Below are positions 13,129 through 30,931 of a stretch of 64,000 nucleotides of DNA, piece by piece. Both the position numbers and the translations under genes were made by a program. This DNA is from Bugula neritina. Lineage: Eukaryota > Bryozoa > Gymnolaemata > Cheilostomatida > Bugulidae. Position 1 is the stretch's first letter. Each line of letters opens with the position of its first letter. Location: positions 24,571,128-24,635,127 of the forward strand of contig OZ037767.1 in the NCBI GenBank assembly GCA_964035545.1, in the 5' to 3' direction. Under the pieces are notes generated by a model. It was given only the letters and a program-made list of their open reading frames with translations. It was not told where the DNA came from and made no database searches.

Positions 13129-15472
13129 ATGGATAATTATTCTATCACACTGGTATTGGCAGTTGTCTTTTCTGTAGCTTCTGGTACAGCTGAGAAGACA
13201 ACTTTCCAAGACAATTACAAGTAAGTTTTTTGATAATAGATAATTGCTTGCATGCGCATTAGTTGGCAAAAAGAATTTTTGGTTTGACAATACTGTTTGT
13301 AAAAAAATATAAAATTCAGTTTCTATGTAAAATAAGCTAGGATTATAATCCTAGCCACTTTCATATTTTTAATTATTTCCATTACCTTTTGCATTTATTA
13401 TATAAAAATAATTTATATTTTCCTGTAGACAATTAAAACTGTTCAGCAAGATAATAAGTGGCAAGTCTCCTTTCAAAAGAGCCCTAGCAGTAGTCACCCC
13501 AGCAGCTTCATCTGGTATCTCACTTTCATATGCATGTAATACTATTGTAAGATAACCTCTATGTGTAAGAAAGTAATATCTATTACACCGCGTATTTGTA
13601 TAATCGTGTAAAAATTTAACAAGTTAAAAGACAGCATGCTATATTGTAACAATGTATGTAAGAAGTTTGTGAAATATTTTCTACAGCCTACATAATCATT
13701 AGTCCAAGGCACTGAATTGGAATACATCATTTCAGTAGTCCAAAGCAACTGCGTAAACTGATAGCAATAGTAGTTATTGGTGTTGTAAATAATTTCACCT
13801 CCACACAAGAGGAGTCAGCATAAAGTCATAAGTTCGATCTCCAGTGAAGGCAATTGGTGATGTTAGGAAAAGCATCCAGTCATAATTGCTCCTGTGCCAT
13901 ATATGAATATAGGTCATTAGCCCGCCTAAAAAGCCCTTTCTATTAGGGGTTCTTACAAGAATAGTGACTATAAACTTGTTTGAGTTTCTTTTATATCTAC
14001 AAGCTTCACAATAAAGTTACTACTTATATTCTATGTACATGATATTCCGATGTAATGTTGTCAGTGAATTTGTCTACACCTGCTGATGATTTCTTTTCTG
14101 CCAATGCCTATTGCCCATGGCCTGAAAGCATAGTATCTCGTAGCGCTGCCAGGAAATCTTTTGGCTTTCAAGCTGCTCCGTCAAAATGGACTGCCCCCGT
14201 TTCACTGACTGCAAAGTTTGCAAACTACTCGGCCAGAATGAGTGTTGATGACCAAGACGATGCTATGGAGAATGTGACTTCAGTGAGTGCGACACACCAA
14301 CTATCTCATGGGCACAGTTTATGCACCAATGTTCAGTTACATAGTCTCACTTTATCAACAAAAGTCAATTTTTCTTTTGGTTTCAAACTGATTTCACAGA
14401 TTATAGATGGTACCAGACACTGACTAAGGATAGTCATTAAACAAATTTAAGAAATAGTATATTAGTTTGTATTTTTGTATATTTGAATTTATAGCAATGG
14501 AACTCCATCTGTAGTAATGTTCAGGTGACATTCATAAGGAGAGAGAATGAGAATTACTCTAGCAGCGCCGACATACTCATTTCCTTTGATGACTATTATG
14601 TTACTGGATATCCTAACAGAAGGGGCGGTGTATACGCATATACTTACTACCCGACTTACAGCGCCATCAAACTAGACAACACAGAACTCTGGGCTAGTAA
14701 GAAATCCATATTTGATAACACATACTTTTAGCATTTACATCACTGTACCAATCTGAAGTGGCAGTCAAATATCTGTGTTATTGCACTACTCATATTTCCT
14801 TTGCTTTTCTGGTGCCACTTGTACATTATTGCTATTTTACATACGTGTTAAGATGTTTTGTGTGAATTTCATGTAGTCAAAATGCTGAATGAATATAATG
14901 TAAAAAATTTCTTGTGATCTGATTTGTTGATCACTGTTTAGCGAGTTTACTTCTCAAAATTTCGTTTTAATTTTCTACTTCAATCAATTGTCCATTTTTG
15001 AAAGTAGCTAGTGAATTTTTTTGAGGAAAAATTTTGCAACATGGCAGTAGTCTTTGGTAAATGCAATTGTAACCGGAGTTTTGCTCTCGCTGGCCATGTA
15101 TTATGGGAATGGCAGGTAACTCCTGAAGCAGACTTTTATTGCATGCGATATCCCGCTTTATGTTGCCTTGGCTTTACTTGCTGGTCTCGCACGCACGCAC
15201 GCACACGCACGCACGCACACGCACGCACGCACACCACCCATACTATTTTGTATGAGTCTTGTTGGAAATTTGTAGCCCTACATTAGACTATGTGTGTAAT
15301 TGCAGGGAAACCATTACAGATTGTTCTACTTCATGAGATGGGACATGCCCTTGGCTTAGGTCACTCAGATCTCCAGTCTGCTGTCATGTACAAGTACTAC
15401 TCTTTCAACAAATTCATGCTGAGCTCAGATGATATTGATGGTCTAAAGCATGTATATTGTAATAGCAACTAG
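13129..15472 (+). CDS. Secreted matrix metalloproteinase, short form (MMP paralogue 1)
   Basis: Zinc endopeptidase of the matrixin family (M10A), predicted secreted. Exons: 13129-13220, 13429-13514, 14065-14282, 14495-14696, 15306-15472; 765 nt, 254 residues. Residues 1-20 are a signal peptide (ITLVLAVVFSVASG). Catalytic-domain motifs are NYSARMSVDDQDDAMENV, ADILISFDDYY, then the zinc helix HEMGHALGLGH (His209, Glu210, His213, His219) and Met-turn SAVMYKYY. There is no hemopexin domain. Oddities: the prodomain cysteine switch is reduced to AYCPWPES (Cys76), and the usual RxKR furin site is replaced by RSAARKS. The loop between ELW and LLHEMGH is about five residues shorter than in canonical MMPs. 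Cys138 (QWNSICSN) and the C-terminal Cys251 match the extra cysteine pair of paralogues 2 and 3. The start is chosen for the signal peptide and phase. Confidence 0.85.
13825..13980 (+). repeat. SINE-like dispersed repeat copy
   Basis: Contains segments ATTGCTCCTGTGCC and a tail resembling GGGTTCTTACAAGAATAGTGACTATAAAC. Both recur at 21272-21440 (+) and about 21812-21905 (-), and the tail alone recurs at about 53752-53812 (-). It lies in intron 2 of MMP paralogue 1. The shared order of blocks in both orientations suggests a retroposon family; no open frame is visible. Confidence 0.6.
15180..15236 (+). repeat. (CGCA)n / CA-rich microsatellite
   Basis: A run of CGCACGCACGCACACG units in intron 4 of MMP paralogue 1. 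It is not coding. Confidence 0.85.
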
Positions 15473-16650
15473 CTAGTTCACATCTCTGTTGGAATGAAAT
15501 TCACTCTGTAGTTGTTATAATTCACTGTTACAATTAGCCATACTACATTATATATCTACAGTAGAAACATATTTTATACTTTTACAATCATATATTTATC
15601 ATTAAATTATCTAATCATTACAATCATTATATGTTTAAACTTTTCGAAGTAGGTTGAATCATTTTTAAACTTATTTTGCATGAGGATTAATATAAAATCT
15701 AACAAATAATTCAAATATCGCAATCTCATGCTATTACTAGGCCTGCTAGAGTTTTCTTGATAATTTCCATTAAAAAATATGCACTGCTGCAATCTTTCCA
15801 ACTTGAGGTTTTAAAGCTACCTGTGGAAGCAGTTATGCATAAAATATTAATAGGCTACTGTACTACACAATTGTCTGCCATTTACCTATATATAACTTTT
15901 GCAATACTTAATAAAGATATTGTAAACAATAAAAACTGTAACAGAATAAAAAAGTTTATGATAGCCAACCATACTTACTAAATCCATGCAACCAAATATT
16001 CTACAGACTAATATATAAGTAGCATATTTTTACTGCACGTTACTACATTAAAACCCAGAGTATTTAGGAATTAAGTTTTCATGCCTGCATATCTGCTCAT
16101 AGATGTGTTTCAGCTCGATCTATGTAAAAAGATGGTTAATTGAAGAAATTTTCATTGATTTTATTATCATTACAACTTTTCTGAAGATTTAAAATTACAA
16201 CTAAAGTGAGTGACTGCAAAAGAAAGCGATGGCATGTACACACTAGTGTAAATATTATACTTTGAACTTTAAACTTTTATAAAATCAGCAAGCTATTTAT
16301 TTACTACTAAAGCAAAATCTTGAGGCATAAATATCCGTTCATCTAATATGTTGAAATCTAACTCCCAGAAACTTTTCTACAGACACGAAAATATGAATAA
16401 TTAGCATTAGCTTCATTAATTTTATTAACATCTTTCATAAAATAACAATAACATAACATATCCCATACTATATTAAATAAATCTAGGGAAGCTTCAAAAG
16501 TTAAATGTGTAATAAATATTATTCTATAAACTATGATTAATTTTTTACAGAAGTCAAGCATCAACATCACAGTTTCTGTAACTATGACAAAATATTATGG
16601 CAATTGAAAAACAAAATCATTCAAACTACAGTATAATAGAAGAAATTTGA
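15473..16650. other. AT-rich region between convergent MMP paralogues 1 and 3
   Basis: Holds the 3' ends of two convergent genes. Small open frames here are AT-rich and shown on both strands without motifs. An AATAAA at about 15910 lies some 440 nt after the paralogue 1 stop. Nothing else is recognised. Confidence 0.5.
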
Positions 16651-29800: not shown

Positions 29801-30931
29801 ATGTAGCAGCTGGTGAAGTTGGTTTACCATATCACCTGTTACAGGAAGCTGAGCATATCTCTGCATTTTTCTCAATGCTCTCTTCATTTCTTGTGAAGGT
29901 GGCTTAACTTCACCACTATTCAATGACTCACTCAGATAGCCAAACTGTTCCAACCATCTAAAACATGGATAATACATTCAGTAGAACAATAGATGGTGAC
30001 AGCTCAAAGCATTCAAATTTTTTCACTCAATAATGCAATAGATTTCAAATTTAACTAGTAGTTTACATTTTTCAACTTTTGCAAACCAATTTGAAACTTA
30101 ACATGTTTGGAAATAATCATTGTTTAAAGTCAATTGATCAAAGCTTTACTCCAGGTCTAAAAAATTGTTTCATACTTATGAATCTGTTTGGTATGAAGTG
30201 CATTACTTAATTAAAGTCTTGTGAATTTGAACATTTGCGTTTATGGAACCCATTACCTGTGTCCAGTATACATTTATAAATAATTCATAATATTTCTTAA
30301 TAAAAGGTTTTTCAAACAGCGAAGTCGTATGCCGAACTTAGAGCCGACATCTGTAGATGTTCTTTTGAACACAAAATATTTGTTAAGTTTCTAAGTTTTC
30401 TGATAAATAAATATATGGTACAAAGTGTTGGAATTACAAAAACTGAACTATTATTTGAATTAAGTTCAATAATAAATTAGCAAATTTTTTTTGAAAGCAA
30501 GCAAATAGAAACATATACCTGACGGCTTTCTCTATTTCTTTGTTTGTTCTCGTAATGTTTTTACTCATTTTGTTATTCAAAACACTGTTTAGTTTTGAAG
30601 TCGGTTTCATAGAATTCTTTTTAATTATCTGCATGTGTGCTAGAGTTGATGGTTTCACTGAAGGCAGTATCGTAGGTCGATGGGTTGAATTGGGTTTGGG
30701 TGAGAGCTGTTCCACAGGTAATATTGATGTATTTACAGACAGTGTGGTTGGCACAACCGAGACAACTGGAGGTGTGTGTGATTGTGACATAGATGGGCTT
30801 GGTAACGTCTCTACCGTAGGTTTAGTCACAGAGTTAGAACTAGTAATCGGTGCTCCAACACACTGGTGTGTAGTTGTGTTTAGAACCAAAGCTAGACATA
30901 ATATTGTAGTGTGTTTTAATGAAGCTTTCAT
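26864..30931 (-). CDS. Secreted matrix metalloproteinase with PGBD prodomain and canonical cysteine switch (MMP paralogue 4)
   Basis: Matrixin-type zinc endopeptidase, the most canonical of the four. Exons in transcript order: 30931-30519, 29957-29836, 28706-28498, 27651-27432, 27030-26864; 1131 nt, 376 residues. It has a signal peptide (LKHTTILCLALVLNTTTHQC), then a Ser/Thr/Pro-rich linker of about 100 residues that is unusual at this position. The peptidoglycan-binding-like prodomain follows (EMKRALRKMQRYAQLPVTG, residues about 159-179). The cysteine switch is KPRCGDKD (Cys194) and the furin site TTRVKR ends at residue 209. The catalytic helix is HELGHSLGFAH (His331, Glu332, His335, His341) with Met-turn SAVMYAFY. 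It keeps the full-length loop before the zinc helix (ESWAEYHNFRPPYSF) and lacks the extra cysteine pair. No hemopexin domain. Intron phases equal those of its three neighbours. Confidence 0.9.
27724..27794 (-). repeat. tRNA-derived SINE head, copy 1
   Basis: On the minus strand it starts GCCCCTGTGGTGCATTGGTA and contains a B box GGGTTCGAATC. The acceptor, D and T stems can be paired with wobbles and one mismatch, but the anticodon arm does not fold. It shares 71-nt length and sequence with 33336-33406, including the flanking AGTAGCCCCTGTG and a downstream ATTTTTATA. It lies in intron 3 of MMP paralogue 4. Probably a SINE or tRNA pseudogene rather than a working tRNA. Confidence 0.7.
28424..28484. 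repeat. (TA)n microsatellite in MMP paralogue 4 intron 3
   Basis: About 30 TA units, ending some 15 nt beyond the exon 3 donor. It causes long artefactual Tyr/Ile frames on both strands. Confidence 0.95.

Follow-up and report, generated by a model that had tools for sequence, protein, structure and literature searches.

The gene cluster and its models

The window analysed here, i.e. the whole stretch of 64,000 nucleotides, covers positions C3:24571128-24635127 on chromosome 3 of the bryozoan Bugula neritina (assembly tzBugNeri2.1, GCA_964035545.1, which was also the genome searched; PMC11480708) and contains a cluster of four genes of the matrix metalloproteinase (MMP) type, designated G1-G4. 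The spliced models rebuilt from their exons are as follows:

13129-15472, + strand: G1, MMP-like, 254 amino acids (exons 13129-13220, 13429-13514, 14065-14282, 14495-14696, 15306-15472; PF00413 82.6 bits)
16651-19289, - strand: G2, MMP-like, 264 amino acids (exons 19156-19289, 18248-18357, 17960-18156, 17070-17262 with GC donor, 16651-16811; PF00413 83.6 bits)
22721-25769, + strand: G3, MMP-like, 247 amino acids (exons 22721-22827, 24062-24147, 24322-24518, 24763-24955, 25609-25769; PF00413 85.2 bits)
26864-30931, - strand: G4, MMP with a canonical prodomain, 376 amino acids (exons 30519-30931, 29836-29957, 28498-28706, 27432-27651, 26864-27030; PF00413 86.6 bits, PG_binding_1 38.1 bits; transcript-like orthologue P0121)

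In each gene an intact frame runs over five coding exons with intron phases 2,1,0,1, the splice ends being GT/AG throughout except for the GC that opens intron 4 of G2 (17064-17069, - strand), where the phase is the same as in the other three genes. All four match the Pfam family Peptidase_M10 at 82.6-86.6 bits (cut-off 24), G4 alone matches PG_binding_1, and all four reading frames stop after the catalytic domain, which in every case possesses the Met-turn and the matrixin Ser after the third zinc-binding His. The catalytic motifs are:

15332-15364, + strand: G1, HEMGHALGLGH
16753-16785, - strand: G2, HELGHSLGLGH
25635-25667, + strand: G3, HELGHSLGLAH
26972-27004, - strand: G4, HELGHSLGFAH

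The original prediction of four MMP genes in the order + - + -, with these exon numbers and phases, was thus reproduced by the rebuilt models and the Peptidase_M10 matches, and the same holds for the cysteine switch, furin-site and catalytic motifs that it had assigned to the four genes. What it overlooked are the absent structural-zinc ligands, the cysteine pair of G1-G3 and the genome-wide pattern of both.

With regard to support for the models, P0121—a protein of 365 residues, 90% identical across the whole of G4—is encoded on a contig of 1,384 bases, which is too short for introns like those of G4 and therefore lends transcript-like support to the G4 exon structure; three of the four nine-residue windows spanning the G4 exon junctions are identical in P0121 and the fourth is off by one residue. 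The database proteins compared were 240 fetched matches, drawn from overlapping lists: one with 11 entries, taken in full, and two with 161 and 175 entries, of each of which the best 120 were taken. Among these proteins, the five most similar to G1-G3 show 29-35% identity and are either other MMPs or the two orthologues of G4.

The structural-zinc site

The structural zinc of MMP-1 is coordinated by His149, Asp151, His164 and His177 (PMC1885970). Such a site (His, Asp, His, His) is usual in MMPs, although the Peptidase_M10 profile does not demand it. It is not present in any of G1-G4, all of them lacking the third and fourth ligands. Concerning the first two places, there is a His near the first one in G2 and no ligand at either in G1, G3 and G4. 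The stretch that should carry the last two ligands falls within one open exon in each gene:

14630-14692, + strand: G1, Tyr and Lys replace His and His
17074-17136, - strand: G2, Phe and Ser replace His and His
24889-24951, + strand: G3, Phe and Gly replace His and His
27463-27525, - strand: G4, Tyr and Phe replace His and His (Tyr and Phe in P0121, Tyr and Tyr in P0122)

As a yardstick, the 240 fetched proteins were filtered for a prodomain with P-[RHK]-C-G and for filled alignment columns, 140 of them passing and 100 failing. The last two zinc-binding His are present in 134 of these 140 MMPs and the full HDHH in 122; the six without the last two His comprise the G4 orthologues P0121 and P0122 as well as P0034, P0036, P0041 and P0043. 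Since many of the proteins failing the filter are bacterial M10 members, and many of these lack HDHH, the yardstick is valid for MMPs with an MMP-type prodomain and not for all Peptidase_M10. The protein P0122 from Watersipora subatra is 63% identical over 66% of G4 and has no structural-zinc ligands, so that, if the two are orthologues, the absence of the site in the G4 line predates the split between Watersipora and Bugula. It is a predicted protein with the record name '50 kDa hatching enzyme-like', a name that is silent on the zinc site.

The original prediction called for a search for further copies in the rest of the genome, and at least 17 Peptidase_M10 loci were indeed found beyond the cluster: 28 exon-level Pfam matches were grouped into 21 loci in total, this number being a lower bound as the genome search scores the best candidates only. 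The 17 loci outside the cluster were modelled by a small spliced-alignment program, the names M029-M043 following the locus numbers; loci L044 and L045, represented by weak and short models, are excluded from all counts for the 19 genes. Of the latter, three have all four ligands (M029, M037 and M039), two have the last two His (M034 and M036) and 14, including all of G1-G4, lack both of the last two His.

A few individual members may be mentioned here. In M034 and M036, which keep the last two His, one Cys sits close to the place of the Asp and another within the strand TPLCF/IPVCF; HCHH is read by seven of the 140 database MMPs, and the structural zinc of M034 and M036 could be Cys-ligated. 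M039 keeps HDHH but reads HQIGH in place of HExxH and, without the catalytic Glu, may be inactive, while L044 and L045 are short HExxHxxGxxH loci too diverged to be placed. The same genome gave 44 exon-level astacin matches; searches for hemopexin and TIMP gave no match, but their controls were equally silent.

Cysteine pairs in the mature domains

According to the usual rule, it is calcium and the structural zinc, not disulfides, that stabilise MMPs (PMC3406945). In the modelled genes the mature domain contains either no cysteine or exactly two in 18 of 19 cases, the odd one being M036 with a single Cys, the model of which skipped part of the loop, an earlier model holding the second Cys; it should be borne in mind that an end or part of the loop is missing from the models M036, M037, M039 and M042, whose counts therefore apply to part of the domain. 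There are exactly two mature cysteines in each of G1, G2 and G3, and none in G4. One is located just after the helix A region (WNxxC), the other at the very end (V/I-Y-C):

14498-14521, + strand: G1, first new Cys (WNSICSNV), following the region that aligns with helix A
15449-15469, + strand: G1, second new Cys (HVYCNSN), at the C-terminus, where the region that aligns with helix C ends
17236-17259, - strand: G2, first new Cys (WNRPCDNV)
16654-16668, - strand: G2, second new Cys (SIYCS)
24766-24789, + strand: G3, first new Cys (WNTPCDNV)
25752-25766, + strand: G3, second new Cys (SIYCP)

A different pair is found in seven paralogues—M030, M031, M032, M033, M038, M041 and M043—with one cysteine in helix A, four residues before the Trp, and the other just before HExxH, neither place being occupied by Cys in the other 12 genes. 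At the position in helix A, 131 of the 140 database MMPs have Ala, in keeping with a tight packing of the helices. The predicted structure of P0012, which is the database protein corresponding to M038 (100/99 in the second tree described below), places Cys184 within helix A (residues 174-192) and Cys263 within helix B (residues 258-269). Three of the seven genes, i.e. those of loci L030, L031 and L032, make up a second tandem array (C3:5411500-5432400), all on the + strand and all without the structural-zinc ligands. M034 and M036 carry a third kind of pair.

The places of the G1-G3 cysteines recall the crayfish astacin disulfide C42-C198 (PMC9848320). An astacin encoded by the B. neritina genome reads ...YTCLRF after helix A and ...IYNC near its end. 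We take C42-C198 to lie after helix A and near the C-terminus of astacin, in agreement with that sequence. From these positions we infer that the pair of G1-G3 forms an astacin-like disulfide, and that of the seven paralogues a bond between helix A and helix B.

Prodomain, cysteine switch and activation

The four genes also differ in the part that precedes the catalytic domain, the relevant features being:

14106-14129, + strand: G1, altered switch AYCPWPES
18110-18130, - strand: G2, altered switch KRPCGIP
18077-18088, - strand: G2, furin-type site RKKR
24351-24368, + strand: G3, altered switch HHCSIS
24390-24401, + strand: G3, furin-type site RRKR
28657-28668, - strand: G4, PRCG cysteine switch
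28615-28626, - strand: G4, furin-type site RVKR

A prodomain Cys occupies the switch place in all four, preceded by Pro in G2, His in G3 and Tyr in G1; the PRCGxxD context has disappeared from G1 and G3 and is altered in part in G2. The combination of a PGBD-type prodomain with PRCGxxD that marks a canonical MMP zymogen occurs in G4 only, and G1-G3, which keep the Cys without PRCG or PGBD, are, judged by their sequences, filed as Peptidase_M10 family proteins and not as canonical MMP zymogens. A hidden Markov model (HMM) built from 15 MMP prodomains, G4 itself being one row, gave 77 bits for G4, 1.7 for G2, -3.4 for G3 and -4.7 for G1. In the 12-33 kb part of the window it found no credible canonical prodomain exon beyond the two of G4, and the idea of hidden canonical prodomain exons near G1-G3 was rejected on that ground.

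The R-x-K-R motif between the switch and the catalytic domain is present in G2, G3 and G4 and absent from G1, in which neither RxKR nor RxxR occurs between AYCPWPES and the catalytic domain. RxKR is likewise absent from the models M030, M039 and M040—the 5' parts of M037, M041 and M042 being incomplete—so that its absence is not peculiar to G1. The loss of PGBD fits a single event in the G1-G3 ancestor and that of the furin site a single event in G1. There is also a precedent for the switch changes, since MMP-26 reads PHCGVPD (PMC10910010).

Altered zymogen control in the cluster is plausible. Each gene would make a secreted zymogen in which the prodomain Cys caps the catalytic zinc; latency probably still relies on this one cysteine, with furin for G2-G4, which furin-type convertases would cut at R-x-K-R during secretion. 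For G1 it is reasonable to expect an activator different from that of G2-G4, and the enzyme would either activate itself or depend on another protease.

Age and branching order of the cluster

In the tree of catalytic domains, G1-G4 form one clade (96/92), within which G1-G3 (97/92) and G2 with G3 (86/77) group together, giving the order G4,(G1,(G2,G3)). A second tree, from which the zinc loop and three cysteine columns were removed and to which further outside sequences were added, retained the cluster (92/77, not starred), G1-G3 (98/93) and G2 with G3 (99/93); both trees were midpoint-rooted. The local duplication proposed originally is thus supported, the four genes not falling into unrelated MMP clades in either tree. 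The proposed stepwise series did not survive: G1, which is the furthest from the canonical form, branches off before G2, the nearest to it among G1-G3.

The identity among G1-G4 amounts to 35-51% for the mature domains and to only 16-28% for the prodomain regions. Synonymous divergence (dS) between the mature domains is, in each of the six pairs, either saturated or no lower than 2.37, indicating that the duplications are old, and a recent duplication was rejected for this reason. The suggested comparison of nonsynonymous with synonymous change gave a proportion of nonsynonymous differences (pN 0.30-0.46) below that of synonymous ones (pS 0.72-0.92) throughout the mature domains; owing to the saturation of dS, constraint is measured only roughly. 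The cluster is apparently an old local family with its mature part under constraint, neither fresh nor a stepwise series. Self-comparison of the cluster DNA revealed a dispersed repeat, a match of 52 bases that is unexplained and, between G2 and G3, two short matches in coding sequence. Relic MMP exons elsewhere in the window were also considered and rejected, tblastn (E<=0.5) outside the modelled exons yielding a single match (E 0.023, 38756-38881).

Further features of the window

The cluster is flanked on the left by WD40-like exons (below the curated cut-offs) and on the right by exons of acetyl-CoA carboxylase. Between the signal peptide and the prodomain of G4 there is a stretch of 105 residues rich in Ser, Thr and Pro (30539-30853, - strand), present in P0121, where it has low confidence in the predicted structure, and shorter in P0122. 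A dispersed repeat of about 165 bases occurs at 16855-17022, 19930-20071 and 25104-25269, with copies in intron 4 of both G2 and G3, in opposite orientations relative to the host genes. The repeat array at 31300-31850 yields false open reading frames of repeated YYSILLYTTL-like peptides. Intron 3 of G4 holds, as judged by eye, a tRNA-like sequence (27725-27800, - strand), perhaps a short interspersed element; ARAGORN called no tRNA within the window.

Discussion

The interpretation towards which we lean, albeit with confidence only somewhat exceeding doubt, is that G1-G4 represent one old MMP clade without structural-zinc ligands, and that the cysteine pair of G1-G3 forms a predicted astacin-like disulfide, which would link the halves of the catalytic domain in place of the zinc. 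The broader proposal—that bryozoan MMPs gave up the structural zinc bracing their fold and on at least two occasions put disulfides in its place, as an astacin-like bond between the subdomains in G1-G3 and as a bond between the backing helix A and the active-site helix B in the seven paralogues—is put forward tentatively, doubt slightly prevailing. The four genes belong to a wider radiation of bryozoan MMPs devoid of the zinc site, in some lines of which cysteine pairs probably replace it. As for the order of events, the structural-zinc site would have been lost first and the cysteine pair gained later on the stem of G1-G3, since G4, the sister of G1-G3, has neither the ligands nor the cysteines. 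A parallel line elsewhere in the genome would have lost the site and then gained the pair between helices A and B, with the cysteine-less M035 alongside the seven genes; M035, also without the zinc ligands, joins their clade in the second tree (branch 95/92).

Several points weigh against this interpretation. As G4, M035, M040 and M042 have neither zinc ligands nor cysteines, a disulfide is not required to survive the loss of zinc. In both trees (85/88, then 85/65) M042 is nested within the clade of the seven genes with cysteines, so that, if it is placed rightly, the pair would have been lost there; M042 and M040 are, however, very long branches of unsure placement. Counting by motifs, the cysteines of G1-G3 lie about one residue before the astacin places on both sides, and G2 has the His near the first ligand place. 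The co-occurrence of cysteine pairs and missing zinc sites is statistically weak because each pair represents one or a few evolutionary events. HDHH is not universal in Peptidase_M10, given the many prodomain-less bacterial matches without it, and, as the trees are midpoint-rooted, it is the prevalence of HDHH among other MMPs that makes loss, and not gain, the assumed direction. The tree requires a minimum of two changes in the zinc site, with M034 and M036 set as unknown and P0002 (HSHH) scored as having the site, whereas a single clade of all 15 rows without the site is disfavoured but not rejected by the approximately unbiased test (p-AU 0.059), which leaves the number of losses unsure. 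To these should be added the roughness of the constraint test due to saturated dS, and the fact that among the 240 fetched proteins no transcript-like support was found for the G1-G3 models.

It is conceivable that G1-G3 are fast-evolving, partly decaying duplicates, in which relaxed constraint led to the loss of the prodomain and the zinc site and which would be weak or inactive enzymes. The low identity of the prodomain regions, the failure of Pfam to detect PGBD in G1-G3, the missing furin site of G1 and the saturation of dS are all compatible with decay, yet the frames, splice ends, catalytic motif and Met-turn are all intact, pN stays below pS in the mature domains, and the zinc site is equally missing from the 63% identical Watersipora orthologue of G4; we therefore regard decay as unlikely. 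Still less can be said for the cysteines pairing between molecules, as in dimers, or with the prodomain Cys. The assignment relies on position and count, and the proenzymes of G1-G3, as judged by eye, carry three cysteines outside the signal peptide, but even numbers of mature-domain cysteines in 18 of 19 models, the proximity to the intramolecular astacin bond and the separate helix A-helix B pair of another clade make such a pairing rather improbable. There is likewise a slim chance that new ligands in a rebuilt loop continue to hold the structural zinc or a different ion, for which one could invoke the His-His (INIHH) near the loop in G4 and both its orthologues, the aforementioned His of G2, and the D and E of the post-loop calcium site kept in G1-G4; against it, neither G1-G4 nor the other ten genes have in common a set of His, Asp or Cys that takes the place of H-x-D...H...H. 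Finally, that the gene models are wrong and transcripts would restore canonical prodomains or loops is very improbable, for although no transcript-like match to G1-G3 was found among the fetched proteins, the prodomain HMM scores and the lack of any other credible reading frame at 12-33 kb, together with the zinc-loop stretch lying inside one open exon per gene, speak against it.

Compared with known systems, G1-G4 resemble the vertebrate matrilysins MMP-7 and MMP-26—minimal enzymes without hemopexin—in consisting of signal, prodomain and catalytic domain only, the frames ending after the last of these, and the His preceding the switch Cys in G3 recalls the non-canonical PHCG switch described for MMP-26 (PMC10910010). 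The matrilysins P0021 and P0029, however, keep all four structural-zinc ligands and have a catalytic domain free of Cys, unlike G1-G3, which in addition lack a recognisable PGBD. The similarity to furin-activated MMPs, such as MMP-11, consists in the R-x-K-R before the catalytic domain of G2, G3 and G4, cleavage there being predicted. Membrane-type MMPs, which are membrane bound, are also activated by furin; furin-activated MMPs as a rule keep PRCG and the structural zinc. Astacins (M12A) share with G1-G3 the approximate places of the C42-C198 cysteines, the bond in G1-G3 being predicted, and their prodomains are described as variable and sometimes short (PMC9848320), a further resemblance. 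They differ in the Glu following the third zinc-binding His, where G1-G4 have the matrixin His-Ser (PMC3406945); the Astacin profile remained below the cut-off in G3 and G4, and G1 and G2 were not among the matches listed. The G4 orthologue P0122, a predicted protein of another bryozoan, shares the absence of the structural-zinc ligands.

In the open-licence literature, judged by titles and abstract openings of the papers listed, no description of bryozoan MMPs without the structural zinc was found; the words metallo, protease and peptidase are absent from the Flustra genome paper and metallo from the Bugula genome note. In MMPs the linker between strands III and IV wraps the structural zinc, and strand IV is the main docking surface for TIMP (PMC3406945). 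With 14 of its 19 modelled MMPs lacking the zinc ligands, and ten of these 14 carrying a new cysteine pair, the genome offers a natural experiment on the role of the structural zinc, on changes in the chemistry that stabilises metalloproteases and on the convergence between MMPs and astacins. Names assigned automatically, for instance MMP7 or hatching enzyme, can mask a different kind of catalytic domain. If the interpretation is true, it would represent a natural metal-to-disulfide swap within one enzyme family of one genome.

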